From positions 756,930-820,929 of the forward strand of contig NZ_KE383928.1 of the NCBI RefSeq assembly GCF_000422825.1: a stretch of 64,000 nucleotides of DNA, given 5' to 3'. This DNA comes from Nocardioides insulae DSM 17944. Lineage in GTDB: Bacteria; Actinomycetota; Actinomycetes; Propionibacteriales; Nocardioidaceae. The stretch's first letter is position 1. The number at the start of each line of letters is the position of its first letter. Shown in pieces: positions 20,526 to 64,000 of the stretch. The translations under genes and the position numbers were made by a program. The notes beneath the pieces are model-generated. The model was not told where the DNA came from and did no database searches. It was given only the letters and a program-made list of their open reading frames with translations.

Positions 20526-21823
<1,298 letters not shown>

Positions 21824-21827
<4 letters not shown>

Positions 21828-22393
21828 GGCTGATCATTATGGGCCCCCCAGGTGCCGGCAAGGGCACTCAGGCGGCGTTCATCTCCGAGAAGTTCGAGAT
21901 CCCCGCGATCTCCACGGGAGACATCTTCCGCGCCAACGTCTCCGAGGGCACGCCGCTCGGACTCGAGGCGAAGAAGTTCATGGACGCCGGTGAGTACGTC
22001 CCCGACGAGGTCACCAACGGCATGGTCCGAAACCGGATCGCCGAGCCCGACGCCCAGGGTGGATTCCTGCTCGACGGCTACCCGCGGACCCTCGCGCAGG
22101 TCGAGGAGCTGGACGGCATGCTCGCCGACACCGGAGCCGCACTGGACGCGGTGATCAGCCTGACCGTCGACCGCGACGAGGTCGTCGCCCGACTCCTCCA
22201 GCGTTCCCAGGAGCAGGGCCGCGCCGACGACACCGAGGAGGTCATCCGGCACCGCCAGGAGGTGTACGCCGAGCAGACCGAGCCGCTGATCGCCGTCTAC
22301 TCCCAGCGGGACCTGGTCCACGAGGTCGACGGTCTCGGCGAGATCGACGTGGTGGCCGAGCGCATCCACACCGTGCTCCGCGGGCTGGCCTGA
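21824..22393 (+). CDS. adk: adenylate kinase
   Basis: 189 residues. Interconverts ATP + AMP and 2 ADP in the cytoplasm. The P-loop is [10 protein letters not shown] (residues 7-16), the AMP-binding motif is STGDIFR (about 31-37), and DGYPRTLAQ lies near 83-91. The length and the short LID segment ([13 protein letters not shown]) place it in the short, zinc-free class. It is translationally coupled to secY and lies 5 bases before map. Confidence 0.98.
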
Positions 22394-22398
22394 GCCCG

Positions 22399-23235
22399 AT
22401 GGGTCTGCTCGACCGCGGCGTCCAGCTCAAGACCCCCGAGCAGATCGACCTGATGCGTCGGGCCGGTCTGGTCGTGGGGGAGACCCTCGCGCTGCTGCGT
22501 GACGCGGTGCGTCCCGGCATCACGACGGCAGACCTGGACGCCCTGGCCGAGGACTCGATCCGCTCGCGGGGCGCGACGCCGTCCTTCCAGGGCTACCACG
22601 GGTTCCCCGCCTCGATCTGCGCCTCGGTCAACGAGGTGATCGTGCACGGCATCCCCGGTGACCGGGTGCTGGCCGAGGGCGACGTCATCTCCATCGACTG
22701 CGGCGCCATCGTCGAGGGCTGGCACGGCGACTCCGCCGTGACCGTGCCGGTCGGCGAGGTCAGCGCCGAGGCCACCGAGCTGATCCGGGTCACCGAGGAG
22801 GCCATGTGGCGCGGCATCGCCGGCGCACGCCTCGGCGGCCGGGTCACCGACATCTCACATGCGGTCGAGCAGTACGTCCGCAGCCAGCAGGAGCCGGGCG
22901 CAGCGCCGTACGGCATCGTCGAGGACTACGTCGGTCACGGCATCGGCTCCGAGATGCACCAGCCCCCCAACGTCCCCAACTTCGGCAAGGCGGGTCGCGG
23001 CCCCAAGCTGCAGCGCGGCCTCGCCCTGGCCGTCGAGCCGATGCTCACCCTCGGGGACCAGGAGAACGACATCCTCGAGGACGACTGGACCGTCGTCACC
23101 GCGGACGGCAGCTGGGCCGCCCACTTCGAGCACACCTTCACCCTCACCCCCGACGGGTTCTGGGTCCTCACCGCCCTCGACGGCGGCCGCGCCTTCTGCG
23201 AGCGCCTCGGCCTGCCGTACGGCGGGCGGGACTGA
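22399..23235 (+). CDS. map: type I methionine aminopeptidase
   Basis: 278 residues. A pita-bread-fold metalloprotease that removes the initiator Met from nascent proteins. The five metal ligands are visible: two Asp in SIDCGAIVEGWHGDSAVTV (about 97-115), His in DYVGHGIG (about 176-183), and Glu in LAVEPMLT and in HFEHTFTL. It ends the secY-adk-map unit before a strong terminator. In most genomes infA, rpmJ and rpsM follow; here a siderophore operon follows instead. Confidence 0.97.
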   Translation: MGLLDRGVQLKTPEQIDLMRRAGLVVGETLALLRDAVRPGITTADLDALAEDSIRSRGATPSFQGYHGFPASICASVNEVIVHGIPGDRVLAEGDVISIDCGAIVEGWHGDSAVTVPVGEVSAEATELIRVTEEAMWRGIAGARLGGRVTDISHAVEQYVRSQQEPGAAPYGIVEDYVGHGIGSEMHQPPNVPNFGKAGRGPKLQRGLALAVEPMLTLGDQENDILEDDWTVVTADGSWAAHFEHTFTLTPDGFWVLTALDGGRAFCERLGLPYGGRD

Positions 23236-47694: not shown

Positions 47695-49101
47695 TCAGCG
47701 GCTGCCGGCACAGGCCTCGGCGGGAGGGGAGGTGCCGGCGCCGACCCGGACGACGACCACGCGCAGGCACACCCGGCCCTCGGCGGGCCGGACGACCGAG
47801 GTGGCGCGAGTGCGCTGCGACTCCTGGGTGCTCGGGTCCGTCCACTGGTAGGTGTCGTCGGCGAGCGGGGTCTCGGCGGGCGACCAGGTGAACCGGTAGC
47901 CGCGAGGCACGGTCGCCACCGAGATCTCGGGAGCCGGTGGCGGCGCAGGGTCGGCCAGCGGCGAGCCGGGCGTGGTCAGGGCCGAGGAGGGTGTGGTCTC
48001 CTCGGTCGGCTCCTCCGACTCATCACCACCACGGACCACGAGCGTCACCAGGAGCGCCAGCGCGGCGACCACGCCGAGCGCTGCCCAGAGCACTCCGCGC
48101 GACGAGCGGGGGGGCTCCTCGAGGTCGCCGTCCGCGGGGGCGGCCCCCGAACCGGTGACGCTGCCGCTGCCCTGGACGAACGTGCTCGGCTTGAAGACGG
48201 TGGCGTCCTCGGGGTTGTCCTCGGCCGCGGGCGCCGCGAACCCCCGGGACTCCTCCACCGCGAGGGGGGTGCGCGCATACCCCATCGAGCTCTCGATCTG
48301 CTGCAGGGAGCGGGCCAGTTCGAGCGCCGACCGGGGCCGCTGGTCGGGCTGCTTGGCCAGGCACTGCGCCAGCAGTCGCTCCAGCGCCGGCGGTACGTCG
48401 GGCCGCTGGGTCGCGGGTGCGGGCGTGTGCAGGATGCGGGTGGCGAGGGCGCGCGAGGAGTTGTCGCCGTGCGGCACGGAGTACGGCGAGCGGCCGACCA
48501 GCAGGTTCCACAAGGTGGCGCCCAGCGAGTAGACGTCGGAGGCGACCGTGCCGTTGGAACGGCCGTCGATCATCTCCGGCGGGGCCCACGGGTAGGACAT
48601 CCGGACCTCGGTGTCCGCATGGACCTCGGCGATCCGTCCGGCGATGCCGAAGTCGGTGAGCGCGGGCTCCTGGTAGGTCGTCACCAGCACGTTGCTCGGC
48701 TTGATGTCGCGGTGCAGGATGCCCGACCGGTGCGCGGTCTCCACGGCGCTGGCCAGCTTCACGCCGGTGGCCAGGACGTCGACCACCGACATCGGGGCGG
48801 TGCGGACCCTCACCCCGAGGTCGGGGGGAGGGCAGAAGCGCATCACCAGGTAGGGCCGGCCCTCGACCTCGCCGGCGTTGAGGACGTTGACGATGTAGGG
48901 GTGGTCGGCCAGGTGCGCCATCGCGTCGGCCTCGCTGCGGAACAGTTCCTTCTCCCGCGCGGTGAAGGAGATGTCCGGGCGCACGATCTTGATCGCCACC
49001 CGCTGCTTGGGCCACTGCTGCTCATAGAGATGGACGTCCGCGAAACCGCCGGAGCCCAACGGCTGCACGTAGGTGAAGCCGGGGATCTGCGGGGCGGTCA
49101 C
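47695..49101 (-). CDS. membrane serine/threonine protein kinase (PknB-type)
   Basis: 468 residues. Kinase domain at about 1-265: glycine loop PLGSGGFADVHLYEQ (about 14-28), Lys in VAIKIVRPD, HRDIKPSNVL (about 130-139), DFGIAG (about 150-155), APPEMIDG. One TM helix (about 340-362) is followed by a Pro/Glu/Thr-rich stretch and an extracellular beta-rich sensor-like domain (TFTW-type GYRFTWSPAETPLADDTYQW, about 405-424). GTG 49101 overlaps the FHA gene stop (GTGA), giving translational coupling. It probably phosphorylates the FHA protein or the AAA/Ig-repeat system of this locus; this is inferred from position. The extended frame upstream to 49686 is an antisense-like shadow inside the FHA gene. 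Confidence 0.92.
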   Translation of the reverse strand: MTAPQIPGFTYVQPLGSGGFADVHLYEQQWPKQRVAIKIVRPDISFTAREKELFRSEADAMAHLADHPYIVNVLNAGEVEGRPYLVMRFCPPPDLGVRVRTAPMSVVDVLATGVKLASAVETAHRSGILHRDIKPSNVLVTTYQEPALTDFGIAGRIAEVHADTEVRMSYPWAPPEMIDGRSNGTVASDVYSLGATLWNLLVGRSPYSVPHGDNSSRALATRILHTPAPATQRPDVPPALERLLAQCLAKQPDQRPRSALELARSLQQIESSMGYARTPLAVEESRGFAAPAAEDNPEDATVFKPSTFVQGSGSVTGSGAAPADGDLEEPPRSSRGVLWAALGVVAALALLVTLVVRGGDESEEPTEETTPSSALTTPGSPLADPAPPPAPEISVATVPRGYRFTWSPAETPLADDTYQWTDPSTQESQRTRATSVVRPAEGRVCLRVVVVRVGAGTSPPAEACAGSR

Positions 49102-50651
49102 GGATGGCGGTCCTTGCTGTGCGGTGGCGGGGTCGGCGCGCCGTACGCCGGGGGCGCGGGCTGTGGTCCGGGGGGCGGCCCGGTCAGGGGAGGCCCACTG
49201 GGCGGCGGCCCGCCGGGCGCCGGCGACGGCGGCCCCGATGGTACGGCGAGGTCCAGACCGGTGCGGAAGGTGACCGTGTAGTCGTCGCCGAGCAGGAGTC
49301 GGTGGTCGTTTTCGAGGATCACCGTGTCGTAGGGGCGCAGCCGCTCGGGTGCGCGTCCCGGCACGAGCAGGGTGGTGCCGGCGCGGGAGCCGAGGTCGCG
49401 GGCGAGCACCAGCCAGCCGTCCAGGGTGATCTGGACGTGCAGGCGGGACAGGTGGGTGGCCTGATCGGGCAGTCGCACCAGGTGCGGCCAGGCCTCGCCG
49501 TCGGGGAGCGGCCGTGGTTTGCGGCCGAGCACGACGCCGCGGTCGAGGAGCAGTTGTTGGCCGTCGGGCAGGCCCAGGACGCCCAGCGGCGGCCGGGGCA
49601 CCCGGGACGGCGGTTGTTCGGCGACGGGTCCTCCGCAGGTCCGGCACACCGAGGAGTGCGCCGGGGTGTAGTGCCCGTTGTCGCACCGCACCGCCTGGAC
49701 GGTCTCGCCGGTGGCATGGCTCAGGTGGTCCGTGGGCGGTTCGGCGCCGCGCGCCTGGGTGTGCCCGTCATGGTCGTCGGGGTGCCAGGACGGCTCGGGC
49801 AGGGAGGGACCGGTCGATCCCGGTGGCGCCGCCGACCCCGCGATCCCGGCGGCGCCGGGCGGCCCGTCGACCGGTGGCGGTGGATCGGTGGGCGGGGAGG
49901 TCGCGGGCGCGCTGGGCGCGGGACGCGGCCCGGTGCGCACCCGGGTGTGCCCGACCCGACCCTCACCGGACCGGTCGGCGTCGTGCGCCGTACCGGAGTG
50001 GGGGCCGGTCTGGGGGCCGGTGGCTCCGGACTCCGGCGCGGAGCGCGGTGAGCGCTGGGTGTCGTGCCCGGGGTCGTGCTCGGGGTCGAGTACCGGGTGG
50101 GCGGCCGTGTCGTGCACGGTCTCGTGGGTGCCGGCCAGGTCGGGGGCGGTGGCGTGCAGGATGGCGTCGGGGATGCCGTCGATGAGGGCACCGGCGCCCG
50201 CGGCCGGGGCGCCCACGCCCCCGGTGGCGCTCTCCCGACCGCCGCCGGACCCGCCCGCGATGGCCGCTGGGGCAGGACGGGTGAGGGTGATGCGGACGCT
50301 CGCGGCCCCCACGACCCCGGAGGCCAGCGGAAGCTCGCGGGCCCGGTCGTGGGCCCGGTCCAGCACCAGTTCGACGGCCTCACCGCGTTCGGCGAGGCCG
50401 GCGTCGCCGCGGATCACTCGCCCGACGCCGACCGCCTGCCGCGCGTCCAGATCGATCACGACCACCGAGGAGGCGCCCAGCATCGCCGCGAGGTCGGCGA
50501 CCGCCTCGGGATCGGGGATGCGCGGTCCCACCAGGGCGTCCCAGAGCTGTTGCGCCGTACCGGGGTCGGGTGGTGAGTCGGCGAGCAGCCAGCGGCTCCC
50601 GTCGCCGAGCAGCAGCCCGCCGCCCGGCACGTAGCCCGCCCGCATGCTCAT
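49098..50651 (-). CDS. FHA-domain protein with zinc-ribbon motif
   Basis: 517 residues. The N-terminal domain (about 1-130) resembles a phosphatase-like/GTPase-like fold but is not assignable with confidence (LLLGDGSRWLLADSPPD). A long Pro/Gly/Ser-rich disordered linker (about 130-320) follows. Next is a zinc-ribbon-like CDNGHYTPAHSSVCRTCGG (about 325-343). The FHA domain (about 370-470) has VVLGRKPRPLP, THLSRLHVQITLDGW and DLGSRAGTTLLVPG; FHA domains bind phosphothreonine. The tail is Pro-rich. ATG 50651 is used because GGGAAGTGGGG precedes it; ATG 50645 is close. It is coupled to the kinase gene, a likely substrate/adaptor pair. Confidence 0.87.
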   Translation of the reverse strand: MSMRAGYVPGGGLLLGDGSRWLLADSPPDPGTAQQLWDALVGPRIPDPEAVADLAAMLGASSVVVIDLDARQAVGVGRVIRGDAGLAERGEAVELVLDRAHDRARELPLASGVVGAASVRITLTRPAPAAIAGGSGGGRESATGGVGAPAAGAGALIDGIPDAILHATAPDLAGTHETVHDTAAHPVLDPEHDPGHDTQRSPRSAPESGATGPQTGPHSGTAHDADRSGEGRVGHTRVRTGPRPAPSAPATSPPTDPPPPVDGPPGAAGIAGSAAPPGSTGPSLPEPSWHPDDHDGHTQARGAEPPTDHLSHATGETVQAVRCDNGHYTPAHSSVCRTCGGPVAEQPPSRVPRPPLGVLGLPDGQQLLLDRGVVLGRKPRPLPDGEAWPHLVRLPDQATHLSRLHVQITLDGWLVLARDLGSRAGTTLLVPGRAPERLRPYDTVILENDHRLLLGDDYTVTFRTGLDLAVPSGPPSPAPGGPPPSGPPLTGPPPGPQPAPPAYGAPTPPPHSKDRHP

Positions 50652-50968
50652 CCCCACTTCCCCCCGGGTCCGGTCGCCGCCGGTGCTCCCGTCCATCCGA
50701 TCACACTGCCGTCGGACCCGACACCGGCATGGTAGGTGGCCGCGAGTGGGCGCTGGGTGACCGGGCCGCGTCCGACCCACCAGGCGCGCCGTGGGTGGGC
50801 GCGACCTGTCCCGTACGTCGGCAGAGCCGATCGCGGGCGCAGGGCGATCGAGGGTGGTCGATAGCGTGACGTTGGCGGTTGGAGGCGCTGAGCTTTACCC
50901 TCGCCTCGCGTATGCCGTCGCCGAGCGAGCCGCGACGACGACGCCGACGAACTCTGTGAGGTGGGGAC
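50652..50968. other. divergent promoter region between the FHA-kinase unit and the first giant gene
   Basis: 317 bases with no credible gene. It must hold promoters for both directions, but no strong -35/-10 pair stood out. A possible -10 is GATAGCGT near 50859 on the plus strand. Confidence 0.4.
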
Positions 50969-53900
50969 ATGGCGCGCAGCAGCCGCGGTCGCGCCGTGTC
51001 CCTGGCTCCCTATCTCGCGCTGTTGATCGTGGTGGCCGGGCTTTCGTGGGTGGCGGTGCGTGCTGACGGCTATCAGGCCCACGACCCCGAACTCCACGAC
51101 GGCGGGGTGTGGGTGACCAACACCGCCGATGGCTTCTACGGTCGGATGAACAAGCCGATCAACCAGTTGGACAGCGCCATCCCGGCGGAATTGGGCAGCA
51201 CCCCGGATGTGGTGCAGGACGGCGCGGCGGTGGTCGCGGTCGATCCCGGGCAGGGCAGCATCACCGCCATCGACCCCGGCCAGGTCGAGATGGTCCAGGG
51301 CGAACGCGCGGTCCTGCCGGCCGACGCCGCCGTGCAGTTGGCCGGTGGCACGGTGGCGGTGCTGGACCCGGCGAGCGGACAGCTGTGGGCCCAACGGGTG
51401 GACCCGGTCGCACAGCATCCGACGGTGAGCGCACTGGACTCGCAGACGGACCCGACCGCGGAGCTGGGTGGCGATGCCGCCCTGGCAGTGAGCCGGGACG
51501 GTGATGTCGTCGTACTCTCCGCCGCCGAGGACCAGCTCACCGAGCTGTCCGCCGGCGAGAGCGGCCTGCAGCCCGCGGACCCGCAGGACCTCGAGTCGCC
51601 GGTCGGTGCCGGCTCGACGGTCACCACCGTCGGCGACACCGCGGTGGTGCTGGACCGGGAGTCCGGCACCCTGAGCGTGGTCGGTGGTGGCACGAGTCAG
51701 CTGGCGCCGGATGCGGTGCTGCAGCAGCCCGGTCCGGATGCAGGCAGCGTGCTGGTGGCCGAGGGCGACCGTCTGGTCTCGGTCGACCTGGCCTCGGGTG
51801 AGGCCGAGGTCATCGCCGACGGTGCCGCCGGTACGCCGGCCCAGCCGGTGCGCCTGGGGGCGTGTGTGTTCGGGGCCTGGTCCGGGGCGGACGGGTACGT
51901 CGCCCAGCGCTGTGGCGACGAGGACACGGCGATGAACACGCTCGGGGCGGGCAGCAGCGACCTGGTGTTCCGGGTCAATCGGGGCGAGATCGTGCTCAAC
52001 GACCGGTCCAGCGGCCGGGTGTGGGACCTCGACACGGACGCACCGACCCGGATCGACGACTGGGAGTCGTTCAAGAAGAAGACGGTCGACACCGAGGACG
52101 ACAAGCAGCAGGAGGACGAGACCACCTCGGGTGACCGGCGTCCGCCCAAGGCCGAGGACGACCAGTTCGGCGCCCGCCCGGGTCGGACCACCGTGCTCTA
52201 CCCGCTGGACAACGATGCGGCTCCCCAGGGCCGGCTGCTGTCGGTGCAGTCGCTGGACCAGCCCTCGGATCCCGACACCGAACTGACCATCAGCCCGAAC
52301 GGGCAGACCGTCCAGATCCGGCTGCCGCAGGGCGCGACCCGGCCGGTCACGTTCGCCTACCACGTGGACGACGGCCGCGAGGGCGTGTCGGACCAGGCCC
52401 AGGTGACCGTGACGCCGAGACAGGACGGGGAGAACGAGGTCCCCGCCCTCCGGGAGGGCTTCGAACCGGAGACCTGGTCGGTGCCGGCCGGAGGCGTGCT
52501 GGAGATCCCGGTGCTGCCGGACTGGCGCGACTACGACGACGGCGACCCGATCAGCGTGGCCGCGGCGACCGCGGAGCGCGGAGACCGGACCGGTGCCACC
52601 GCGCGCGTCACCGGGAGCGGCCGGATCCGGTTCACCGCTCCCGCTCAGCGCGGTGATTCCACGATCAGCTACCAGGTCAGTGACGGGGTCGGGGAACCGG
52701 TGGAGGAGTCCGTCCGGGTCCGGGTCCAGGATCACCGGGACCGGCAGGCGGTGGCACCCTCGGCGCAGCCGGACGTGGTCAGCGGCGAGGTGGGCAAGCC
52801 GATCCTCATCCGTCCACTGGCCAACGACCATCCCGGCTCCGACCCGACCACCCCCGACGCCGAGCTGGTGCTGGCCGGGCAGGTGGCCTCGCCCGGCGGT
52901 GCCCGGGTGAGCACCGACCTGGTCGAGGGGACGGTGACCCTGCGGGCGAACTCACCACGGACCTACTTCCTCGACTACGACGCGGCGTACGGCAACTCGC
53001 AGTTCTCCCGGGCGAAGATCCGCGTCGACGTACGGCCGGCGCAGAACCCGCCCCGGGACCCGGTGGCGATGCCGGACCAGGTCACCCTGTCCGGTCAGGC
53101 GCCCACGCTGGTGGACGTGCTGGCCAACGACGTCGACGCCGCCGGCCGGGTGCTCACGGTGCAGGGCGCGCAGGCAGCCGACGACGCCGACCTGGACGTC
53201 TCGGTCGTCGAGGGTCGCTGGGTGCGGATCGCCGCCCGGCAGCCCCTGCTGGGCGCCGGCAGCCGGGTCGTGCACTACACCCTGAGCAACGGTGCCAACT
53301 CCGGTGTCACCGGTGATGTGATGGTCAGCCAGCGGCCCCGGCCCGAGGACAACACCCCCGTCACGGAGGTGGACCGGGTGACGGTACGCGCCGGCAGCGC
53401 GGCCGCGATCCCGGTGCTGGACAACGATTTCAGCCCCGCCGGCGACCCGCTGCGGCTGGTCGACGATGTCGCCGAGGCCGAGGCGGGTCAGCTGGTGGTG
53501 CGGCCGCCGGGTGACGAGGAGGTGCCGCTCGGGCAGGCCTATGTCACCGGTCGGGTGGTGAAGTACGTCGCCCCCACCGTGCGCGAGACGACGACGTACA
53601 CGATCGGCTATCAGGCGACCAACTCGGCCGGTGAGGTGGCGCCCGGAAGCGCCGAGGTCACGGTGCTGCCGGCCGAGGACAACCGGCCGCCGGAGCCGCC
53701 GCTGCTGGAGGGTCGGGTGATGGCCGGCGGCGAGGTGACCCTGCGGCTGCCCGGCGCCGAGGTCGACCCGGACGGCGATCCGGTGACGCTGACCTCGATC
53801 TCGGTGCCGCCGAAGCTGGGCCGGATCCTGTCATCCGGCGCCAACTCGCTGGTCTACGAGGCCTTCCCGGGGAGTACCGGCACCGACGAGTTCTCCTACC

Positions 53901-56900
53901 GCGTCGAGGACCCGCAGGGCGCCGAGGCCGAGGGGACGGTCCGGGTCGGTGTGACCGAGCCGGCCGAGGTCCAGGCCCCGCTGGCGGTGGACGACACCGC
54001 CCGGGCCGCACCCGGCCGCAGGATCGTGGTGGACGCGCTGGCCAACGACCACGTCGCCGAGGGTGACCGGGTCAGCATGGAGCTGGTCGACCCGCCGGAG
54101 GGCGTGTCCCTGGACGGCACGACCGGGCCGGTCTCGGTCCGGGTGCCGAACGGCGGCGAGGACGTCAAGGTCGTCTACACGCTGAGCAACGGGGTCTCCA
54201 CCACCCGGGCCACGATCCTGGTGCGGGCGGTGGAGGGGTTCAACAACCCGCCGGTGGTGCCCGACGCCTTCGGCCAGGACGCCGAGGGCGGTGCCGCCGA
54301 GAACACCGTCGTGGTCGACGTGCTCGAGGACGCCGTGGACCCCGACGGTCCCAAGGACGCACTGCAGGTCACCGAGGTGACGGCGCCCGCCGCGCTCGCC
54401 GCGTCGGTCGACGGCGGCTCGGTGACGCTGACCCGGGGCGAGCACCCCACGGTGGTGCCGGTGCGGGTCGAGGACGCCGACGGGGGCGCGACCACCGCGT
54501 CGGTCTACGTGCCGGCCGCCGGGAGCTCCCTGCCCTACGTCGACGGGGCCATCGAACTCGACCCGGGGGAGACGGTGACCGCCGCGCTCGAGGATTACGT
54601 GGTGGACCCTTCCGGCGAAGGGGTCTCGCTCACCCTCAAGGACCGGATCTGGCCCTCGCCCGAGGGGCAGATCAATGCCACCGTGACCGGGGAACGCGAG
54701 TTCGAGGTCTCCGCCGGGGAGCAGTACGCCGGACCGGGGGCGGTCAGCGTCGAGGTGCTCTCGGGGGTCACCGACACCTCGCCCGGGGTCAAGACGGTGC
54801 TCTCGGTGCCGGTCCAGGTGGGCTCCACCAGGCCCGCGCTGCGCTGCCCCTCGTCACCGCTGGAGGTGGCGCAGGGTCAGACGATCGAGATGGACATCAC
54901 CGCGCTGTGCCACACCTGGACCAGCGACCCCGACGAGGCCGACGACCTGGAGTACACCGCCGACTGGGAGGCCGGGGCGGACGGGCTCAGCATCATCGAA
55001 CCCAGGGGCGAGCAGATCAGCGTCGAGGCGGCGCCCGATGCGGAAGCCGGTACCGAGGCCACCCTGGCGGTCAAGACCCGCGGCAGCGAGCCGGGGCTGA
55101 TCCCGGTGGTCGTGGTCGCGGCCCCGTCGCCGTCGCTGGCGCCGGTCAGCGTCGAGGACATGGCGGCCGGTGAGGAACGTCGGGTCGACCTGCTGCCCTA
55201 TCTCACGACCGGTGCCGACAACCCGGACCCGCAGATCCTGAGCATCGAGGCGATGACCGAGCTGGACGTCGACGCCGAGGTCGACGGCACCAGCCTGGTG
55301 CTGCGCGCGGGCGAGGACGTGCACGGCACCGCCCGGTTCGCGGTGACGATGGCCGACGTCGGTGGCAACCCGCCGGCGAACCGGCAGGCGTCGAGCACCC
55401 TCGAGGTCACCATCCTGGACACCCCCGACGCCCCCACCGCGCCGGTGCCGGGGCGGACGGTGCGCAGCCAGGAAGTGGTGCTCTCCTGGCGGGCGCCGGA
55501 GGCCAACGGTGCGCCGATCGACCGCTACCGGGTGACCGGCGATCACGGTGCGGGCACCCGCGAATGCGGCTCGACCGGGTGCACGATCACCGGGCTGACC
55601 AACGGCGTGGACTACACCTTCACCGTGGAGGCGCACAACCGGGTCGGCTGGTCCGACCCGAGTCCGCGATCCGCGGTCGCCACCCCGGACGCCAAGCCGG
55701 GCATCGTCGGCGAGATCCGGCGTACCCGCGTGGGCGATGGCACGATCGCGCTGGCCTGGACCGCACCCACCACCCAGACCTCGGCGATCGAGCGCTACCA
55801 CGTCTCCTGGCCCGGTGGTGAGGGCGCGACCGTCAGCGGCCCGGCGGCGACCATCGGCGGGCTGGACAACGACAAGACCTACGTCTTCACGGTGGTGGCC
55901 GAGAACGCCTTCGACGTCGGGCCGGGGCGCACCTCGGCGCCGTACCAGTCGATCGGTACGCCGCCCGCACCGGGCGCGCCGACGGTCACCGACCAGGAGA
56001 CCGCGGGGGACGCGGGGGCGGTGAGCCTCGCCTGGGGGCCGGTGCTGCCCAACGGGCCCGGCCCGGTGACCTACACCGTGCAGCGCAACGGCGCCCCGCT
56101 GGCGCAGTGCACCAACCAGACGGCCACCACCTGCGACGACACCGGCATCAGCTACGACGGCCAGACCTACCGCTACACCGTGACCGCCTCCAACGCCGGG
56201 GTGCCCGGTACGCCCGGCGGCGCGGCCCGCACCAGCGCCCCCAGCGCCGCGGAGAGCTGGACCGCAGTCGGCAAGCCGGCCGACTGGGGTTCGTGGAGCG
56301 CCAGTGCCCCGAAGGCGGACGGGAAGGCGGTGGTCAGCTACACCGTGCCCAACTCGCGCGGGGCGACGTCGACGGTCAAGGTCACGGTGGGCGGGACGGT
56401 GTACACCTACGAGGAGACCGGCCAGCAGAGCCACAGCTACGACCTGAGCACCGGTTCGGCGCACTCGGTGAGCCTGCAACTGTGCAACGAGCAGACCTGC
56501 GGAGCGGAGACCGGGAGCACGTCGGTCCAGACCTACGACCAGCTGACCAACGCGATCAGATCGGTCACGGCGAACCGTTCCGGCAACTCGGCGAGTTGGA
56601 CGGTCACGGTCGACACCATGGGTCGCAGCGCCTCGCTGCGGATCAGGAGTTCCCAGCGGGACGTCTCGAAGACGCTCTCGGGGACCGGCGTCCAGACCTA
56701 CACCACCTCGGCGGTGGACCTCGGTTACGAGGTCACGGAGAAGGTCACGGTGACCGTGACCGACTCGGGTCGGGGCAGCGACTCGGCGACCGCATCGGTC
56801 ACCACACCGGACCGGCCAGCGAGGAGCGTGCGGGTCAGCCACGGATCCAAGTGCAACGACAGCGGCTCTACGCCGTGCAAGGTCAACTCGCCCGACGGCA

Positions 56901-57130
56901 CCCGCTGCGACGTCGCGGAGTGCCGCCGGATCGGCGTGACCCTGGAGAACTTCAACCTCGAGGACCCGGGCGCGACGTTCCGCTGCACGGCCAACAGCAG
57001 CGCGGGCGGCGGCTTCCAGATCAGGCAGCTCAGCGATGGCTACGCCGAGCCCGGGTGGTACGCCGGCCGGATCGACTGGATCGAGGTCACCTGCGACGGG
57101 GTGAGCAGCGGGAAGTTCGACTGGTATTGA
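50969..57130 (+). CDS. giant membrane-anchored Ig-like/FnIII repeat protein, paralogue 1
   Basis: 2053 residues. A single N-terminal signal-anchor (about 10-30, YLALLIVVAGLSWVAVRADG) implies a large extracellular part. Residues about 40-365 look propeller-like. A charged linker with PPKAEDD (about 392) precedes about ten Ig/cadherin-like repeats marked by LDND or LANDV motifs (near 411, 615, 715, 814, 1020). FnIII domains begin near 1487, 1575 and 1667. A Cys-containing C-terminal domain (about 1950-2053) has CND, CDVAECRRIGV, FRCTANS and VTCDG. ATG 50969 follows GAGGTGGGG. It is divergent from FHA-kinase and followed by its paralogue and a MoxR ATPase. Adhesion or cell-wall role is inferred. 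Confidence 0.88.
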   Translation: MARSSRGRAVSLAPYLALLIVVAGLSWVAVRADGYQAHDPELHDGGVWVTNTADGFYGRMNKPINQLDSAIPAELGSTPDVVQDGAAVVAVDPGQGSITAIDPGQVEMVQGERAVLPADAAVQLAGGTVAVLDPASGQLWAQRVDPVAQHPTVSALDSQTDPTAELGGDAALAVSRDGDVVVLSAAEDQLTELSAGESGLQPADPQDLESPVGAGSTVTTVGDTAVVLDRESGTLSVVGGGTSQLAPDAVLQQPGPDAGSVLVAEGDRLVSVDLASGEAEVIADGAAGTPAQPVRLGACVFGAWSGADGYVAQRCGDEDTAMNTLGAGSSDLVFRVNRGEIVLNDRSSGRVWDLDTDAPTRIDDWESFKKKTVDTEDDKQQEDETTSGDRRPPKAEDDQFGARPGRTTVLYPLDNDAAPQGRLLSVQSLDQPSDPDTELTISPNGQTVQIRLPQGATRPVTFAYHVDDGREGVSDQAQVTVTPRQDGENEVPALREGFEPETWSVPAGGVLEIPVLPDWRDYDDGDPISVAAATAERGDRTGATARVTGSGRIRFTAPAQRGDSTISYQVSDGVGEPVEESVRVRVQDHRDRQAVAPSAQPDVVSGEVGKPILIRPLANDHPGSDPTTPDAELVLAGQVASPGGARVSTDLVEGTVTLRANSPRTYFLDYDAAYGNSQFSRAKIRVDVRPAQNPPRDPVAMPDQVTLSGQAPTLVDVLANDVDAAGRVLTVQGAQAADDADLDVSVVEGRWVRIAARQPLLGAGSRVVHYTLSNGANSGVTGDVMVSQRPRPEDNTPVTEVDRVTVRAGSAAAIPVLDNDFSPAGDPLRLVDDVAEAEAGQLVVRPPGDEEVPLGQAYVTGRVVKYVAPTVRETTTYTIGYQATNSAGEVAPGSAEVTVLPAEDNRPPEPPLLEGRVMAGGEVTLRLPGAEVDPDGDPVTLTSISVPPKLGRILSSGANSLVYEAFPGSTGTDEFSYRVEDPQGAEAEGTVRVGVTEPAEVQAPLAVDDTARAAPGRRIVVDALANDHVAEGDRVSMELVDPPEGVSLDGTTGPVSVRVPNGGEDVKVVYTLSNGVSTTRATILVRAVEGFNNPPVVPDAFGQDAEGGAAENTVVVDVLEDAVDPDGPKDALQVTEVTAPAALAASVDGGSVTLTRGEHPTVVPVRVEDADGGATTASVYVPAAGSSLPYVDGAIELDPGETVTAALEDYVVDPSGEGVSLTLKDRIWPSPEGQINATVTGEREFEVSAGEQYAGPGAVSVEVLSGVTDTSPGVKTVLSVPVQVGSTRPALRCPSSPLEVAQGQTIEMDITALCHTWTSDPDEADDLEYTADWEAGADGLSIIEPRGEQISVEAAPDAEAGTEATLAVKTRGSEPGLIPVVVVAAPSPSLAPVSVEDMAAGEERRVDLLPYLTTGADNPDPQILSIEAMTELDVDAEVDGTSLVLRAGEDVHGTARFAVTMADVGGNPPANRQASSTLEVTILDTPDAPTAPVPGRTVRSQEVVLSWRAPEANGAPIDRYRVTGDHGAGTRECGSTGCTITGLTNGVDYTFTVEAHNRVGWSDPSPRSAVATPDAKPGIVGEIRRTRVGDGTIALAWTAPTTQTSAIERYHVSWPGGEGATVSGPAATIGGLDNDKTYVFTVVAENAFDVGPGRTSAPYQSIGTPPAPGAPTVTDQETAGDAGAVSLAWGPVLPNGPGPVTYTVQRNGAPLAQCTNQTATTCDDTGISYDGQTYRYTVTASNAGVPGTPGGAARTSAPSAAESWTAVGKPADWGSWSASAPKADGKAVVSYTVPNSRGATSTVKVTVGGTVYTYEETGQQSHSYDLSTGSAHSVSLQLCNEQTCGAETGSTSVQTYDQLTNAIRSVTANRSGNSASWTVTVDTMGRSASLRIRSSQRDVSKTLSGTGVQTYTTSAVDLGYEVTEKVTVTVTDSGRGSDSATASVTTPDRPARSVRVSHGSKCNDSGSTPCKVNSPDGTRCDVAECRRIGVTLENFNLEDPGATFRCTANSSAGGGFQIRQLSDGYAEPGWYAGRIDWIEVTCDGVSSGKFDWY

Positions 57131-57247
57131 CCGATCCGCCCAGGTCTCCGGCGGGGGATTGAGCCTCTCCCGATGTGGGTAGGCATGTCTCGGCGAGGGC
57201 GCACCCGGATCGGGCAGGGCTGAGACGAACGACTCGGGAGAGCAGCA
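57131..57247. other. gap between the giant paralogues
   Basis: 117 bases without a clear terminator. A weak promoter candidate TTGAGC (57159) / TAGGCA (57180) has a short 15-base spacer, so read-through from the first giant gene is likely. Confidence 0.3.
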
Positions 57248-60200
57248 GTGGGCAAGGCAGGGACGGCGAGGCGGTATGCCGCGCCGGCGCCGTACCTCGC
57301 GCTGCTGCTGGTCGTGGTCGGCCTCTCCTGGGTGGCGGTGCGGGCCGACGGCTACCAGGCCCACGACCCGGAGTTGCACGACGGCGGGGTCTGGGTGACC
57401 AACCGGGCCGACGGCTTCTACGGCCGGATGAACAAGCCGATCAACCAGCTCGACAGCGCGCTCCCGACCGAGCTGGGCAGCTCGCCCGACGTGGTCCAGG
57501 ACGGTGCCGGTGTGGTGGGCGTGGATCTGGCCCGGCAGCAGGTCGCCACCATCGACCCGGCCGGGGTGGTGGTGGTCGAGGGCGATGTGGCCGCCGTACC
57601 GGCGCAGGCCCGGGTCGGGCTGAGCGGTGGCACCCTCGCTGTCGTCGACCCGGCCGACGGCCGGATATGGGGCACCCTGGCCGATTCGGGTACGGGCATC
57701 CCGGCGGCCAGCACGGTGGACGCGCAGAACGACCCGATCGCCGAACTCGGTGGCGATGCCGACCTCGCGGTCAGCACCGGCGGCACGGCCGTCGTCCTCT
57801 CCGCCGCCGCGGACACCCTCAGCCTGCTGCGCCCCTCAGGGGCCGACCTGGGCGCACCGGAGACCCGGTCGCTGGACCAGGAGATCGGTCCGGGGTCGAG
57901 CGTCACCACGGTGGGCGAGGCCCCCGTCGTCCTCGACGGGGAGTCCGGCACCCTCCTGCTCCCCAGCGGCGCGACCTCGTCGGTCTCCTCCGACGCGGTC
58001 CTGCAACAGCCCGGGCCCGAGGCCGACGAGGTGGTCCTGGCGGACGGCGGCCGACTGGTCACCGTCGACCTCGAGACCGGCGACTCCCGGGATCTCACCG
58101 ACGGCATCGCTGGTACGCCGGCCGAGCCGGTGCGGCTCGGAGCCTGTGTGTTCGGCGCCTGGTCGAGCATGGGCGGCGCCGACGCGTCGGTGGCCCAGCG
58201 CTGCGGTGGGGGCGGCACCGACGTGGCGAGTCTGGGGCCGACCGCCTCGGATCTGGTGTTCCGGGTCAACCGCGGGGAGATCGTGCTCAACGACCGCGCC
58301 ACCGGGTCGGTGTGGGACCTCGACACCGACAGCCCGACCCAGATCGACGACTGGGAGGCGTTCAAGAAGGAGGTCGTCGACTCCGAGGACGCCGAGCAGC
58401 AGCAGGAGCAGGAGTCGGTCGGCGACCGGCGTCCGCCGAAGGCCGAGGACGACCGGTTCGGCGCCCGCCCGGGTCGGCTGACCGTGCTGCACCCGCTGGA
58501 CAACGATGCGGCGCCGCAGGGACGGCTGCTCTCCATCCGCTCCGTCGACACACCGCACGGTGAGGCCGAGGTGACGGTGAGCCCGGACGGCCAGACCGTC
58601 CAGATCCGGCTCCCGGAGGGAACCGCCACCCCGGTCACCTTCACCTACCACGTAGACGACGGCACCCGGGACGTCGCGGCGTCCGCCGAGGTCACCGTCA
58701 CGCCGCGCAGCGATCAGGTCAACGCCCGCCCCACCCGGCGGGAGGGGTACGACGAGGCGGAGCCGGAGCGCTGGGCGGTGCCGGCGGGCGGGGTCCTCGA
58801 TCTCCCGGTGCTGCCGGACTGGCGCGATTACGGCGACGGTGACCCGCTCGGTGTCACGTCCGCAACCGTGTCGGGCGCGGCTAGCCAGGGGGCCGAGGCC
58901 CGGGTGGCCGGTGACGGGCGGATCCGGCTCACCGCTCCGGCCCGTCGGGGCGAGGTCACCGTCGACTACGTCGTCGGCGACGCGGTGGGAGAGAGCGCCC
59001 AGGGGTCGGTCAGTGTCCTGGTGCAGGACGCGACCGCCCGGGAGGCGGTCGCGCCGCGGGCCCAGCCCGATGTGGTGACCGGTGAGGCCGGCGAGCCCAT
59101 CCTGATCCGGCCGCTGGCCAACGACCACCCGGGCTCGGACCCGCTCGACCCGAACGCCGCGCTCACCCTTGCCGGTGAGGTGACTCCGGTCGGCGGCGCG
59201 CAGGTGACCACCGACCGGGTGTCGGGCACCCTGAGCTTCCGGGCCGAGCAGCCGCGCACCTACTTCTTGGAGTACGACGCCGCCTACGGCAACTCGGCCT
59301 TCTCCCGGGCGAGGATCCGGGTCGACGTCCGTCCCGCCGACGATCTGCGGGCGCCGGTGGCGGTGCCGGACCAGGCGTCCCTGGTGGGCCAGTCGCCGCG
59401 GCTGGTCGACGTCCTCGCCAACGACGTCGACCCGGCCGGCCAACTCCTCACCGTGCAGAGCGCCGAGGCGGAGTCCGAGGCGTTGGACGTGACCGTGGTC
59501 GAGGGACGGTGGGTGCGGGTCTCGCTGCGGCAGGACACCTTGGCCCCGAGCCCGCAGACGGTGAGCTACACGATCAGCAACGGCGCCTCCTCCGCCGAGG
59601 GGGAGGTCGTGGTCACCCAACGCCCCGACCAGCTGGATCCCACCCCGGTCACCGAGGCGGACCCGGTCACGGTGCGCGCCGGTGCCTCCGTCTCGGTGCC
59701 GGTGCTCGACAACGACTTCAGCCCGACCGGGGAACCCGTGCAACTGGTCGACGACGTCGCGGGGGCAGAGCCGGGCCAGCTGACCGTGCGCCCGAGCGCG
59801 GAGGACCGGCCCACCCTCGGGAACGCCTACGTCGCCGGGCGGCACGTCCGCTACGTCGCCCCCGGCGATCTCGAGGAGGCCGCGACCGCCACCATCGACT
59901 ACCAGGCATCCGTGTCCTCCGGGGAGTCCGCGCCGGGCACCGTCGAGGTCACCGTGCTACCGGCCGACGACAACCGGGTGCCCGAGCCGCCCGCCCTGGA
60001 GGGCCGGGTCACCGCCGGTGACCGACTCACCCTCCGGCTGCCGGGCGCGGGCGTCGACCCGGACGGCGACCCGGTGACCCTCACCTCGATCAGTACGCCA
60101 CCGCGGCTGGGCCGGGTGCTCAACCATGGTGCGAACTCGCTGGTCTATGAGGCGTTCCCGGACAGTGGCGGCACCGACGAGTTCGGCTACACCGTCGAGG

Positions 60201-63200
60201 ACGAGCAGGGCGGCACGGCCGAGGGCACGGTCCGGGTGGCGGTCGCGCCACCGGCGGAACCGCAGCCGCCCCTGGCCGTCGACGACACCGCCCGGGTCGC
60301 GCCCGGGCGGACCGTGCGGGTCGACGCTGTGGCCAACGACCACGTGGCGGCGGGCGACCGGGTCACGATGGAGCTGGTCGACCCACCGGAGGGCGTCGAA
60401 CTGACCGGTGACACCGGTCCGATCTCGGTCCGGGCACCCGAGGACGGTGGCGATGTGTCCGTCGTCTACACCCTCGGCAACGGCGTCAGCACGACGCGCG
60501 GCACCGTCCTGGTGCGTTCGGTCGAGGGGTACGACAACCCGCCGATCGTCCCCGACGCCTTCGGGCGCGACGAGCAGGGTGCAGCGACCAGCTCCACGGT
60601 CACCGTCGACCTGCTGGCGAACGCCACCGACCCGGACGGCCCCGACGACGCCCTGCGGATCAGCCAGGTCGTCCTGCCCGCGGAGGAGATCTACGACGTC
60701 GACGGCGGCTCGCTCACCCTCCCGCGCGGTGACGAACCGAGTGTCGTGCCCGTCCGGGTGACCGACGCCGACGGCGGTGCCACGACCGCGTCGGTCTACG
60801 TCCCGGCGCGCGACGAGTCGGCGCCGTACGCCCGTGGCAGCATCGAGCTCGACCCGGGACAGACCCGTACGGTCGACATCTCCGAGCACGTGGTCGACCC
60901 TGCCGGCGGCGAGGTCCGGCTCACCCTCGTGGACCGGATCTGGACCTCGCCCGAGGGCCAGCTCGCTGCCCGGACCACCGACGAGCGCACCATCGAGCTC
61001 ACCGCCGGTGAGGACTACCAGGGGCCGGCCGCGGTCAGCTTCGAGGTCACCACCGGACGAGGCGTCGATGACGCCGAGGGCCGCACCGGCATCCTCACCG
61101 TGCCCGTGCAGGTCGGGGAGACCGCCCCGGTGCTGAGGTGTCCCGAGGAACCGATCGGCATCGCCCAGGGACAGAGCATGACCCTCGACGTCTCCGCGGT
61201 CTGCCATACCTGGACCACCGACCCCGAGGACGCCGACGGCCTCGAGTACGCCGCCGACTGGCAGGCGAGCAGCGACGGACTGAGCATCATCGAGCCGCGC
61301 GGCCGGCGGATCAGCGTGGCCGCCGACGGCGACGCCAAGGTCGGCTCCACCGGGCGACTCACCGTCTCGACCGAGCACGGCGCCACGGGCGTCGTCCCGA
61401 TCGTGGTCACCGCCCAGCCGGCGCCCACCCTGGCGCCGGTCTCGGTCGACGACCTCCGCGCGGGCGAGGAGCGCACCCTGGACCTGGCGAATTTCCTCAC
61501 CCCGGGCGTGGACGAGGCCGACCCGCGGATCCTCGAGGTCACCCCGCTCACCACCCTGGACGTCGACGCCCGGGCGGACGGCTCGCGGCTGATCCTGCGG
61601 ACGGGCGACCGCGTCCACGGTCCCGCTCGCTTCCGCGTCGAGATGACCGACGTGGCCGGTGAGGACCCACCGCCCAACCGGCGCGCGACCACGACCGTGC
61701 GTGCGGTGGTCCGCGACCGGCCGGCGACGCCGGCCGCGCCGGTGCCCGGCCGCACCGTGCGTAGCCAGGAGGTCCAGCTGTCCTGGCGGGCACCGGAGTC
61801 GAACGGCTCGCCGATCGACCGCTACCGGGTCACCGGCACCGGGGACGCCGGCACCACGATCTGTGCCACCACCACCTGCACCGTCGACGGACTGACCAAC
61901 GGTCGGTCCTATAGCTTCACCGTGCAGGCGCACAACGCGCTGGGCTGGTCGGAGACGAGTCGCAGCTCGGCGCAGGCCGTTCCCGACGCCAAGCCCGGAC
62001 AGGTCGGTCCGATCCGGTTGCAACGGGTCGGCGAGGGCCAGCTGGTCCTCGCCTGGAACCGTCCGGAGCGGGAGAGCTCGATCGACCACTACCTGGTGAG
62101 CTGGCCCGGCGGCGGTGAGGCAAGACAGGTCACTCGCCCACAGGCTGCCATCGGGGGTCTGGACAACGAGAAGACCTATGCCTTCTCGGTGGTGGCGGTC
62201 AACGATCTCGCGTCCGGTCCGGTGCGTGTCTCGGCGCCCCATCAGTCGGTCGGTACGCCGGCCGCGCCGGCGCGGCCGAGGATCGAGGACCGGCAGACCG
62301 CCGGGGACACCGGCGCGGTCGAGGTCACCTGGAGTGCGGTCCCGCCCAACGGACCCGGCCCGGTCACCTACACGGTGCTGCGCAACGGCACCAGGCTGCC
62401 GCACTGCACCGGGCTGCGGACGCTGAGCTGCGTGGACGCCGGGATGCGCTACGACGGCACCTCCTACCGCTACCAGGTCACCGCCACCAATGCGGGTGTG
62501 CCGGGTGTGACCGGCGGTGCGGCGCGGACAAGCCGACCCAGTGCGGCCTCCTCCTGGGCGGCCGTGGGCAGTCCGGCGGCGTGGCAGAGCTGGAGCGTGA
62601 CCGCGCCGAAGGCCGACAGGCGCGCGAAGCTGACCTACTCCGTGCCCGACTCCCGCGGCGAGGAGTCCACGGTACGGGTGTACGTCGACGGCACTCGGCG
62701 TACGACACTCCCCGATCAGCACGGCACCCCGACCAGGTACTACAGCCTCGGGGTCAACGCTCCCCACCGGATCGCCCTGCAGTTGTGCAACGAGTCGGGC
62801 TGCGGCCCGATCACCCCCACCCAGTCGGTGCAGACCGCCGGACCGCTCGATGCCGGCACGATCCGAGCCACCGGCACCCCGACCGGTACCGACAGCAAGA
62901 TCCGCTGGTCGATCTCCTGGGACTCGGAGGGGGCGCCGACGCGCATCACCGTCAAGGGGATCAACACCTCCCGCAACACGGCGGCCAGCAGCGCCGGCGT
63001 GGGCCCGACGAGCGTCCGTACGGGCGACATGGGCGTAGGGGCGAGCACCGTGGAGAGGCTGCGGATCACGATCCAGGACAGGAGCGAGTACGGTCGCTCG
63101 TCGGTGTCGGCCGTGTTCTCCTCGGCCAGGACCCCGGCGCCGAACCGGACCGTGAATGTCACCCGGGGCAGCCAGTGCAACGACGACCCCAGCTTCGATG

Positions 63201-63499
63201 CGCCCTCGTGTCAGGGGTTCGGGATCCCGAGCGCGTGCACGGACAAGACCTGCGGGCGGATCCAGGTCCATCTCAGCGGGTTCGGTGCCAGCCGGGTGAC
63301 CTGCACCTTCCACTCCGTGGACAGGGCGAACTGGGGGCATTCGGAGAACTTCGCGGGAAACGGCACCTACCAGGCCGACGCGTACTACGGGAAGCCGGAG
63401 AAGGAGCAGTGGATCCGCTGCCAGAAGGCGAACGGGTCCGATGGGATCGAGGAGTCGAACCACCATCCGTGGCCGACCGCCGGATTCGGCGGCGGCTGA
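57248..63499 (+). CDS. giant membrane-anchored Ig-like/FnIII repeat protein, paralogue 2
   Basis: 2083 residues with the same domain order as the preceding protein: signal-anchor (about 11-32), propeller-like region, PPKAEDD linker (about 396), Ig/cadherin-like repeats with LDND/LAND motifs, FnIII domains from about 1492, and a Cys-containing C-terminus from about 1967 (CND, CTDKTCGRIQV, VTCTFHS, IRCQKANG). The first 80 residues are nearly identical to paralogue 1 (VRADGYQAHDPELHDGGVWV), while the C-terminal 200 differ strongly. GTG 57248 follows GGGAG. A head-to-tail gene duplication is evident. It ends 128 bases before a MoxR-type ATPase gene. Confidence 0.88.
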   Translation: MGKAGTARRYAAPAPYLALLLVVVGLSWVAVRADGYQAHDPELHDGGVWVTNRADGFYGRMNKPINQLDSALPTELGSSPDVVQDGAGVVGVDLARQQVATIDPAGVVVVEGDVAAVPAQARVGLSGGTLAVVDPADGRIWGTLADSGTGIPAASTVDAQNDPIAELGGDADLAVSTGGTAVVLSAAADTLSLLRPSGADLGAPETRSLDQEIGPGSSVTTVGEAPVVLDGESGTLLLPSGATSSVSSDAVLQQPGPEADEVVLADGGRLVTVDLETGDSRDLTDGIAGTPAEPVRLGACVFGAWSSMGGADASVAQRCGGGGTDVASLGPTASDLVFRVNRGEIVLNDRATGSVWDLDTDSPTQIDDWEAFKKEVVDSEDAEQQQEQESVGDRRPPKAEDDRFGARPGRLTVLHPLDNDAAPQGRLLSIRSVDTPHGEAEVTVSPDGQTVQIRLPEGTATPVTFTYHVDDGTRDVAASAEVTVTPRSDQVNARPTRREGYDEAEPERWAVPAGGVLDLPVLPDWRDYGDGDPLGVTSATVSGAASQGAEARVAGDGRIRLTAPARRGEVTVDYVVGDAVGESAQGSVSVLVQDATAREAVAPRAQPDVVTGEAGEPILIRPLANDHPGSDPLDPNAALTLAGEVTPVGGAQVTTDRVSGTLSFRAEQPRTYFLEYDAAYGNSAFSRARIRVDVRPADDLRAPVAVPDQASLVGQSPRLVDVLANDVDPAGQLLTVQSAEAESEALDVTVVEGRWVRVSLRQDTLAPSPQTVSYTISNGASSAEGEVVVTQRPDQLDPTPVTEADPVTVRAGASVSVPVLDNDFSPTGEPVQLVDDVAGAEPGQLTVRPSAEDRPTLGNAYVAGRHVRYVAPGDLEEAATATIDYQASVSSGESAPGTVEVTVLPADDNRVPEPPALEGRVTAGDRLTLRLPGAGVDPDGDPVTLTSISTPPRLGRVLNHGANSLVYEAFPDSGGTDEFGYTVEDEQGGTAEGTVRVAVAPPAEPQPPLAVDDTARVAPGRTVRVDAVANDHVAAGDRVTMELVDPPEGVELTGDTGPISVRAPEDGGDVSVVYTLGNGVSTTRGTVLVRSVEGYDNPPIVPDAFGRDEQGAATSSTVTVDLLANATDPDGPDDALRISQVVLPAEEIYDVDGGSLTLPRGDEPSVVPVRVTDADGGATTASVYVPARDESAPYARGSIELDPGQTRTVDISEHVVDPAGGEVRLTLVDRIWTSPEGQLAARTTDERTIELTAGEDYQGPAAVSFEVTTGRGVDDAEGRTGILTVPVQVGETAPVLRCPEEPIGIAQGQSMTLDVSAVCHTWTTDPEDADGLEYAADWQASSDGLSIIEPRGRRISVAADGDAKVGSTGRLTVSTEHGATGVVPIVVTAQPAPTLAPVSVDDLRAGEERTLDLANFLTPGVDEADPRILEVTPLTTLDVDARADGSRLILRTGDRVHGPARFRVEMTDVAGEDPPPNRRATTTVRAVVRDRPATPAAPVPGRTVRSQEVQLSWRAPESNGSPIDRYRVTGTGDAGTTICATTTCTVDGLTNGRSYSFTVQAHNALGWSETSRSSAQAVPDAKPGQVGPIRLQRVGEGQLVLAWNRPERESSIDHYLVSWPGGGEARQVTRPQAAIGGLDNEKTYAFSVVAVNDLASGPVRVSAPHQSVGTPAAPARPRIEDRQTAGDTGAVEVTWSAVPPNGPGPVTYTVLRNGTRLPHCTGLRTLSCVDAGMRYDGTSYRYQVTATNAGVPGVTGGAARTSRPSAASSWAAVGSPAAWQSWSVTAPKADRRAKLTYSVPDSRGEESTVRVYVDGTRRTTLPDQHGTPTRYYSLGVNAPHRIALQLCNESGCGPITPTQSVQTAGPLDAGTIRATGTPTGTDSKIRWSISWDSEGAPTRITVKGINTSRNTAASSAGVGPTSVRTGDMGVGASTVERLRITIQDRSEYGRSSVSAVFSSARTPAPNRTVNVTRGSQCNDDPSFDAPSCQGFGIPSACTDKTCGRIQVHLSGFGASRVTCTFHSVDRANWGHSENFAGNGTYQADAYYGKPEKEQWIRCQKANGSDGIEESNHHPWPTAGFGGG

Positions 63500-63627: not shown

Positions 63628-64000
63628 ATGACCCTCACCCGCGAGCAGGCCGACTGGTTCAAGCAGACCTTCGACACGCTGACCGCCAACATGGAGCAGG
63701 CGGTGCTCGGCAAGCGGCACGTCGTGCGGCTCGCCCTGACCTGCATGCTCTCCGAGGGCCACATCCTGCTCGAGGACTTCCCCGGCACCGGCAAGACGAT
63801 GCTGGCCCGCACGCTGGCCAACACGGTGCAGGGCAGTCACGCGCGGATCCAGTTCACTCCCGACCTGCTGCCCTCCGATGTCACCGGGGTGACCGTCTAC
63901 GACCAGCACAAGGGCTCCTTCGAATTCCACCCCGGCCCGATCTTCCACACGATCGTGCTGGCCGACGAGATCAACCGGGCCTCGCCGAAGACCCAGTCCG
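63628..64000 (+). CDS. MoxR-family AAA+ ATPase (partial, cut by the window end)
   Basis: The first 124 residues are present. Walker [13 protein letters not shown] (about 49-60) and Walker [19 protein letters not shown] (about 107-124) are those of MoxR/RavA-type AAA+ ATPases. These act as chaperones that mature or insert metal or cofactor in VWA-domain partners, usually encoded with DUF58 and transglutaminase genes just downstream. ATG 63628 has GGACGAG upstream. The preceding 128 bases contain a CAGCAG-rich stretch without a clear terminator, so it may be co-transcribed with the giant genes. The rest lies beyond the window. Confidence 0.93.

Follow-up and report, generated by a model that had tools for sequence, protein, structure and literature searches.

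Paired surface-stalk genes of Nocardioides insulae: two unlike C-terminal tips in a family whose tips are replaced among relatives

What does a cell gain from two neighbouring copies of a membrane-anchored protein of some 2000 residues? The question is raised by genes A and B (2053 and 2083 aa), which lie head to tail on the + strand, 117 bp apart, in the stretch of DNA analysed here (the window; 64,000 nucleotides of Nocardioides insulae DSM 17944, contig NZ_KE383928.1, positions 756,930 to 820,929). A preliminary description, made from the sequence alone, had recognized the two adjoining giants, and the open reading frames (ORFs) confirm them; it went on to propose that a tandem pair suggests specialization of the outward-facing tip. 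Our reading, to which we assign a probability of roughly 0.6, is that A and B are paralogous surface stalks with a folded recognition tip that is swapped by recombination in the family, and that tandem copies display two tips. Replacement of the 3′ end with both flanks kept is observed in relatives; we infer its action on A and B.

The two proteins share the domain order that had been described: an anchor, a propeller-like region, Big_9 and cadherin-like repeats, two fn3 domains and a C-terminal domain with six cysteines, which lie within the last ~105 residues of each protein. Pfam finds seven Big_9 stretches, two fn3 stretches and Cadherin_4/5 in each, and the hydrophobic anchor of B has its Kyte-Doolittle peak at residues 13-31. 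The AlphaFold model of the propeller-like region is weak [mean predicted local distance difference test score (pLDDT) 57, with ~60-87 reached only at A residues ~160-367]; with this weak query, the best Foldseek matches in the PDB are beta-propellers, e.g. 1l0q and BamB, the top one being a YVTN beta-propeller [E = 6.9e-8, template modelling (TM) score 0.42]. A and B would be single-pass stalks in which a short N-terminus and the anchor are followed by a membrane-proximal propeller, a long shaft built of Ig/cadherin-like and FnIII domains, and the six-cysteine tip.

Identity between A and B is not uniform. By A residue, aligned protein identity is 86% at 9-88, 48% at 89-250, 68% at 251-400, 66% at 401-960, 75% at 961-1090, 56% at 1091-1490, 63% at 1491-1790 and 46% at 1791-1860, then 22% at 1861-1950 and 29% at 1951-2053; the body is 63% identical up to residue 1790. 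The profile has a conserved collar by the membrane, stays at moderate levels through the body and drops in one step at the C-terminus; it is not a gradient from near-identity. The divergence of the C-termini that the preliminary description had noted is borne out from residue 1861 onward, whereas its statement that the proteins are almost identical near the N-terminus applies to residues 9-88 only. The duplication is not recent, because the synonymous divergence (dS) between A and B is ~0.5-1.1 in body windows along the pair. B is the top DNA match to A elsewhere in its genome (71% over query bases 36-5408), the remaining five matches being fragments of 37-75 bp; 150-bp windows are 57-82% identical up to base 5400 and contain no near-identical patch. 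Misassembly is an unlikely source of the pair, because the copies sit in a 946-kb contig and differ throughout at this dS. A and B group as sisters in the tree of 31 bodies (support 100/100), joined next by G031 (99/97; G, L and C numbers are our handles for genomes, loci and contigs), a sequence that is cut by its contig and was used in this tree only.

For the tips, 119 sequences of the genus were collected, of which seven were dropped as cut or frame-broken (G031, G141 twice, G143 twice, G042 and G114) and 112 aligned; body denotes A residues 1-1700 and tip everything from A residue 1881. Some matched genes of the genus are absent from this set (e.g. those of G180, G192 and G196), and L119 (G189), L158 (G123) and the repeat loci L160 and L161 were left out of the analysis. 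Among the 167 pairs with body identity of 60-70%, A/B included, tip identity has a mean of 33% (standard deviation 6, minimum 22); A/B, at 63.5% in the body and 24.4% in the tip, lies within the range. The pair carries two unlike tips, but nothing beyond the habit of the family.

The habit is best seen in pairs whose bodies are more alike. Bodies are at least 80% identical in 133 pairs, which share genes, hence are not independent, and four of which involve tandem genes; tip identity is below 40% in 62 of them and reaches at least 60% in 51, the remaining 20 lying at 40-60%. When clustered at 50% identity, the 112 tips form 60 groups, of which 42 contain a single tip. Five non-tandem pairs, followed at the DNA level, are mostly 80-97% identical in the body, dip to 35-49% at their lowest near the 3′ end and exceed 90% again within ~300 bp past the gene. 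Break points were found in all 27 pairs (20 genes) with body identity of at least 85% and tip identity below 45%, at medians of -641 and +37 bp from the last sense codon; DNA identity before, inside and after the low segment is 82, 49 and 92%. The likelihood gain from the low segment is 144-320 log units in these swapped pairs, compared with 4-142 in 41 same-tip controls (chosen by tip likeness, many from one clade), and the last 600 bp are 40-55% identical in the former and 64-95% in the latter. On A the exchanged segment is a projection only (see table); exchange in A itself was not observed.

Tip and body trees (24 rows each, including G052 as outgroup) reject groups drawn from one another. 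Tip data reject the body clade G007/G130/G172 (approximately unbiased test, p-AU = 2e-63) and a grouping of six members of a seven-row body clade (p-AU = 1.4e-4). Two groups seen in the tips, the pair G116/G172 (2e-40) and the clade G007/G096/G138 (3e-62), are in turn rejected by the body data; the clades were picked after pair identities were known, and the p-values are not those of a blind test. For G116/G172, identity is 86% in the tip vs 79% in the body and the proportion of synonymous differences (pS) is 0.30 vs 0.40; here the tip can be younger than the body, as expected from a moved tip. A second, distant FN3-MoxR-DUF58-transglutaminase locus is present in several genomes of the genus (L062, L063, L065, L067, L069, L099, L101). 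Its tips also look exchanged: the non-tandem genes G007x/G022x are 95% identical in the body and 28% in the tip. A tip that varies in step with the C-terminal part of the neighbouring kinase was rejected, as this part is far less variable than the tip, being 69-97% identical in eight pairs, reaching 97% in G030/G089 with tips at 39%. Across the family, the last ~200 residues behave like a cassette that is replaced while the rest of the locus stays, the putative route being homologous recombination between strains or species, probably through the conserved shaft upstream and moxR downstream.

Tandem copies have unlike tips in all eight genomes compared. The G108 pair is 69-98% identical in body bins and 20% in the last ~90 residues; the G125 pair is 30% identical in the last ~90 residues, where G125b and its G127 orthologue are 96% identical. 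In the five-gene array of G275 the last ~90 residues are 17-41% identical, with copies 2-5 at up to 94% in body bins and 27-41% in the last bins; last bins of the other arrays are at 16-29%. These five giant FN3-type genes (L162 and L163, contig C35, another family of the order) stand in a row before moxR and differ in their C-termini. The divergence at the outward end holds and recurs in G108, G125 and G275. Duplication as the driver of that divergence is not supported, as non-tandem genes drop alike (G007x/G022x) and A/B lies inside the family range. We favour tip replacement by recombination throughout the family, tandem copies being a means of carrying more than one tip. Through local duplication, here and independently elsewhere, a cell would display two tips (as many as five in the other family of the order); for A/B this probably means two versions of a recognition end that changes fast.

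In two of the pairs the bodies may carry traces of a further process. In G108 the likeness between the two copies exceeds that to either positional orthologue by >8 points in 24 of 51 scored windows, and the G125 copies are closer than G125b/G127 by >5 points in nine windows, both thresholds being our own choice; windows from residue 1961 onward never show such excess likeness in either genome. Patchy gene conversion that spares the tip is the simplest reading of these windows, though not a proven one, and the shafts of a repertoire may be homogenized in this way while the tips are kept unlike. Along the tandem copies of G108 and G125 (L082 and L084), patches of >90% DNA identity lie between stretches of 55-75%.

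Adjacent copies are rare yet arose repeatedly. Relatives were surveyed for one versus two copies. Of the 215 genomes of the genus, 111 have a match to a 400-residue query from the N-terminal part of B (E 1e-20) and three hold adjacent FN3 pairs (the window's genome, G108 and G125), a number for which eight candidates were scored per genome and copies could have been missed. Nine genomes have a second FN3 gene elsewhere (G007, G019, G022, G042, G046, G090, G117, G129 and G194). A fourth pair in the genus is possible in G141, which is split over contigs, one of them running from an FN3 start into a MoxR piece; G143 is frame-broken. In G141 (L088:12800-14671 and L087) the FN3 start continues into the middle of the MoxR gene, by an assembly fault over a tandem pair or by a deletion. 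Of the 293 genomes sampled from the order, 113 match, and adjacent copies occur, beside the window's genome, in five genomes, all of another family [G320 (2), G321 (2), G328 (3), G350 (2) and G275 (5)]; rescoring all candidates in 12 genomes, the five array genomes included, gave identical copy numbers. The phylum sample has matches in 19 of 398 genomes (four candidates scored per genome), with adjacent copies in the window's genome only. In the tree the tandem arrays fall in at least five separate groups, a count that gene conversion could blur.

The A/B clade comprises 63 proteins, A and B among them, whose bodies share at least 40% identity with that of A. Exactly six cysteines occur in the last 110 residues of 62 of these and five in the other one; the remaining 49 of the 112 proteins have two to six. 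Over 49 same-tip pairs, many from one clade, the median ratio of non-synonymous to synonymous divergence (dN/dS) is 0.14 in the body and 0.36 in the tip. Because the cysteine frame is kept and selection within a tip type is purifying, we infer that the tip is a folded recognition domain with variable surfaces. Foldseek with the weak tip model gives mostly FnIII chains (TM score ~0.2-0.4), which are not used as evidence.

A number of points count against recombining recognition tips. No swap is seen in A/B; body dS is high and the best tip relatives among the 112 sequences are only 36% and 32% identical. Ordinary fast divergence fits A/B too, because the bodies are far diverged and neither tip has a near relative. 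Fast divergence also acts besides replacement in the relatives, because tips of intermediate identity exist (the 20 of 133 pairs at 40-60%), tip dN/dS is up to 0.7 in some pairs, and same-tip controls have lower identity in the tip (median DNA identity 77% vs 91% before it). The rise in pS that goes with the drop in identity (body 0.19-0.30, tip 0.44-0.54, in the six pairs from G007x/G022x to G108a/b) speaks for replacement, but unlike tips give a poor codon alignment, which in itself raises pS. A scan of 12 genomes turned up neither a donor nor a silent cassette: its 15 tip matches all lie at FN3 genes, but the model used fails to detect divergent tips, including the distant ones of the second locus, and silent copies of other types may exist. 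The sample has one genome per species, and the comparisons between genomes are between species. The structural model of the tip is weak, with a mean pLDDT of 61 and values <50 for part of the tip, and recognition is its putative function. For Bifidobacterium, PMC6803598 reports positive selection and no evidence of recombination in these genes.

The C-terminus could be only a dispensable, drifting tail under relaxed constraint, with A/B merely showing it; in favour, divergence of the A/B tips is typical of the family at that body distance, tip dN/dS is above that of the body and even same-tip pairs diverge faster in the tip. Mere drift was nevertheless rejected and is now very improbable, in view of the sharp break points with recovery past the gene, the comparison with controls, the synonymous jump, the mutual rejection of trees, the six cysteines in 62 of 63 proteins and the narrow range of tip length (150-197 residues over 112 sequences). 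It is a different matter whether the exposed tip varies to escape phages, predators or secreted toxins while the job of the stalk (wall architecture) is independent of tip sequence. All the evidence for tip exchange fits such escape equally, and the tip would be outermost if the N-terminus is the anchor; the kept cysteine frame and the within-type median dN/dS of 0.36 show constraint but are compatible with escape, which we regard as rather unlikely.

A and B could also be used differently through propeller or shaft, with the tip secondary. Residues 89-250, at just 48%, would suit this, as would the longer branch of B in the body tree (0.41 vs 0.26 for A). Throughout the 63-protein clade, however, these residues also belong to the less conserved parts of the body, and in some of the other tandem pairs the 61-200 bin is 76-82% identical although the tips are unlike, making such subfunctionalization improbable. 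Polymorphic toxins of the Rhs/CDI type have a conserved N-terminal body and a swapped C-terminal cassette, followed directly by an immunity gene. The relatives share C-terminal replacement on a conserved body with them, and a toxin domain delivered by the stalk would account for that. There is no room for an immunity gene, however: the spacer to moxR (median 41 bp) does not exceed 300 bp in 107 of 108 genes with an identified moxR. A Pfam scan of six C-terminal ends gave no match at cut-off, the A/B clade has one common cysteine frame rather than unrelated domains, and the architecture is that of a surface stalk. This candidate was rejected and seems to us scarcely credible.

The proposed recognition stalks with replaceable tips have known counterparts. 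Tip adhesins of pili and RTX adhesins present a binding domain at the far end of a long shaft of beta-sandwich repeats, and the stalks here resemble them in shaft and end domain but differ in anchoring, neighbours and tip. Closer in layout is the bifidobacterial PFNA cluster, which PMC8430577 gives as pkb2-fn3-aaa-atp-duf58-tgm, with the genes in one direction and pkb2 first. According to PMC10688814, the FN3 protein of B. longum GT15 has fn3 domains at 1494-1671, and its C-terminal region is required jointly with these domains for TNF-alpha binding. Like A and B, PFNA FN3 has ~2000 aa, a transmembrane segment, two fn3 domains at almost equal positions (from 1493 in A), a C-terminal region after them and a WSxxS motif in an fn3 domain (WSDPS in A, WSETS in B). 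Kinase, MoxR, DUF58(-like) and transglutaminase-like genes neighbour both, a likeness of layout and gene content. Unlike in PFNA, there are two FN3 copies here and the tips of relatives are exchanged by recombination; we call the locus PFNA-like because the kinase and FHA-like genes lie on the - strand, opposite to the genes from FN3 to transglutaminase.

Giants of the FN3 type have been studied in bifidobacteria as adhesins and cytokine binders, with their variation ascribed to positive selection; searches of open-licence PubMed Central papers gave no description of tip exchange in such genes, and among the papers listed only bifidobacterial ones bore on the subject. If the tip is a recombining cassette in a broader range of actinobacteria, it is the place to look for ligands, the natural series of 112 tips offers a ready-made panel for binding assays, and tandem pairs of the A/B kind, with two tips on similar shafts in one cell, are a natural experiment on tip function. 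It is conceivable, though we advance it only tentatively and at less than even odds, that actinobacteria have recombination-driven recognition on this plan, with a tip cassette exchanged across species, repertoires of 2-5 stalks, and tips serving as identity or partner markers or as phage-escape variants.

Features of the A/B locus in window coordinates.
Feature	Position	Strand	Basis
Gene A, upstream copy; 2053-aa membrane-anchored repeat (FN3-type) protein	50969..57130	+	ATG-start ORF; Pfam
Gene B, downstream paralogue adjoining moxR; 2083 aa	57248..63499	+	GTG-start ORF; Pfam; sister of A
Spacer A-B, 117 bp	57131..57247	+	ORF limits
A hydrophobic signal-anchor, residues 12-30	51002..51058	+	Kyte-Doolittle peak 2.24
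A propeller-like region, ~residues 44-370 (approximate limits)	51098..52078	+	AlphaFold model and Foldseek
A shaft, Ig/cadherin-like repeats, ~residues 390-1492 (approximate limits)	52136..55444	+	Big_9 E 4.2e-53, 7 stretches; Cadherin_4/5
A best fn3 stretch, residues 1493-1568, contains WSDPS	55445..55672	+	Pfam fn3
A six-cysteine tip domain, residues 1951-2053	56819..57127	+	Alignment, cysteine counts
B six-cysteine tip domain, residues 1965-2083	63140..63496	+	Alignment, cysteine counts
A counterpart of segment exchanged in relatives (~-641 to +37 from last sense codon)	56487..57164	+	Projected from break points of 27 relative pairs
MoxR AAA-ATPase gene, start; continues past window end	63628..64000	+	Pfam AAA_3 E 2.8e-62
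FHA-like protein, divergent from A, start codon not settled	49101..50780	-	Pfam FHA E 0.0019, 19.0 bits vs cut-off 20.7
Ser/Thr protein kinase, one transmembrane helix and C-terminal outer domain	47698..49686	-	Pfam Pkinase E 7.9e-40; transmembrane helix at ORF residues 532-550

The downstream neighbours of the pair are those that had been noted for actinobacterial single-copy loci. B is followed on the + strand by genes for MoxR, a DUF58-like protein (Pfam DUF58 E 0.0014, 18.4 bits, below the cut-off of 23.4) and a transglutaminase-like protein (Transglut_core E 5.2e-8), which, judging by their families, are probably concerned with stalk assembly or cross-linking. On the other side the kinase, whose true start is probably inside its ORF, adjoins gene A with the FHA-like gene in between, and this kinase/FHA pair would probably serve stalk control. 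Similar neighbour sets surround many of the relatives' genes, and segments similar to the FHA-like gene flank the FN3 gene in many of their loci; kinase and FHA-like matches were not seen in some (e.g. G049, G060, G206).

The cluster is lodged inside the secY-to-rpoA ribosomal string in many Nocardioides. In this genome it sits between secY-map (window 20508-23235) and infA-rpmJ-rpsM-rpsK-rpsD-rpoA (L009:11670-14886); secY, map, rpsD and rpoA were identified by Pfam, and the other four names are putative. Among 129 loci longer than 8 kb, many of them too short to reach these genes, map is recognized in 31 loci; the counts for secY and rpsD are 27 and 21, the latter including the window's own. 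Both map and rpsD surround the cluster in 19 relatives' loci, including those of G030, G089, G096, G012, G022 and G007, so the compared genes of these six genomes are at the same place. The FN3 cluster thereby splits the ribosomal spc/alpha gene string, with secY and map upstream and infA to rpoA downstream. Between map and the kinase this genome has ~24 kb of extra genes, including those for an AMP-ligase, iron-siderophore uptake and an esterase. The sole long spacer before moxR among the 108 genes is found at L138 (G006) and measures 1171 bp.

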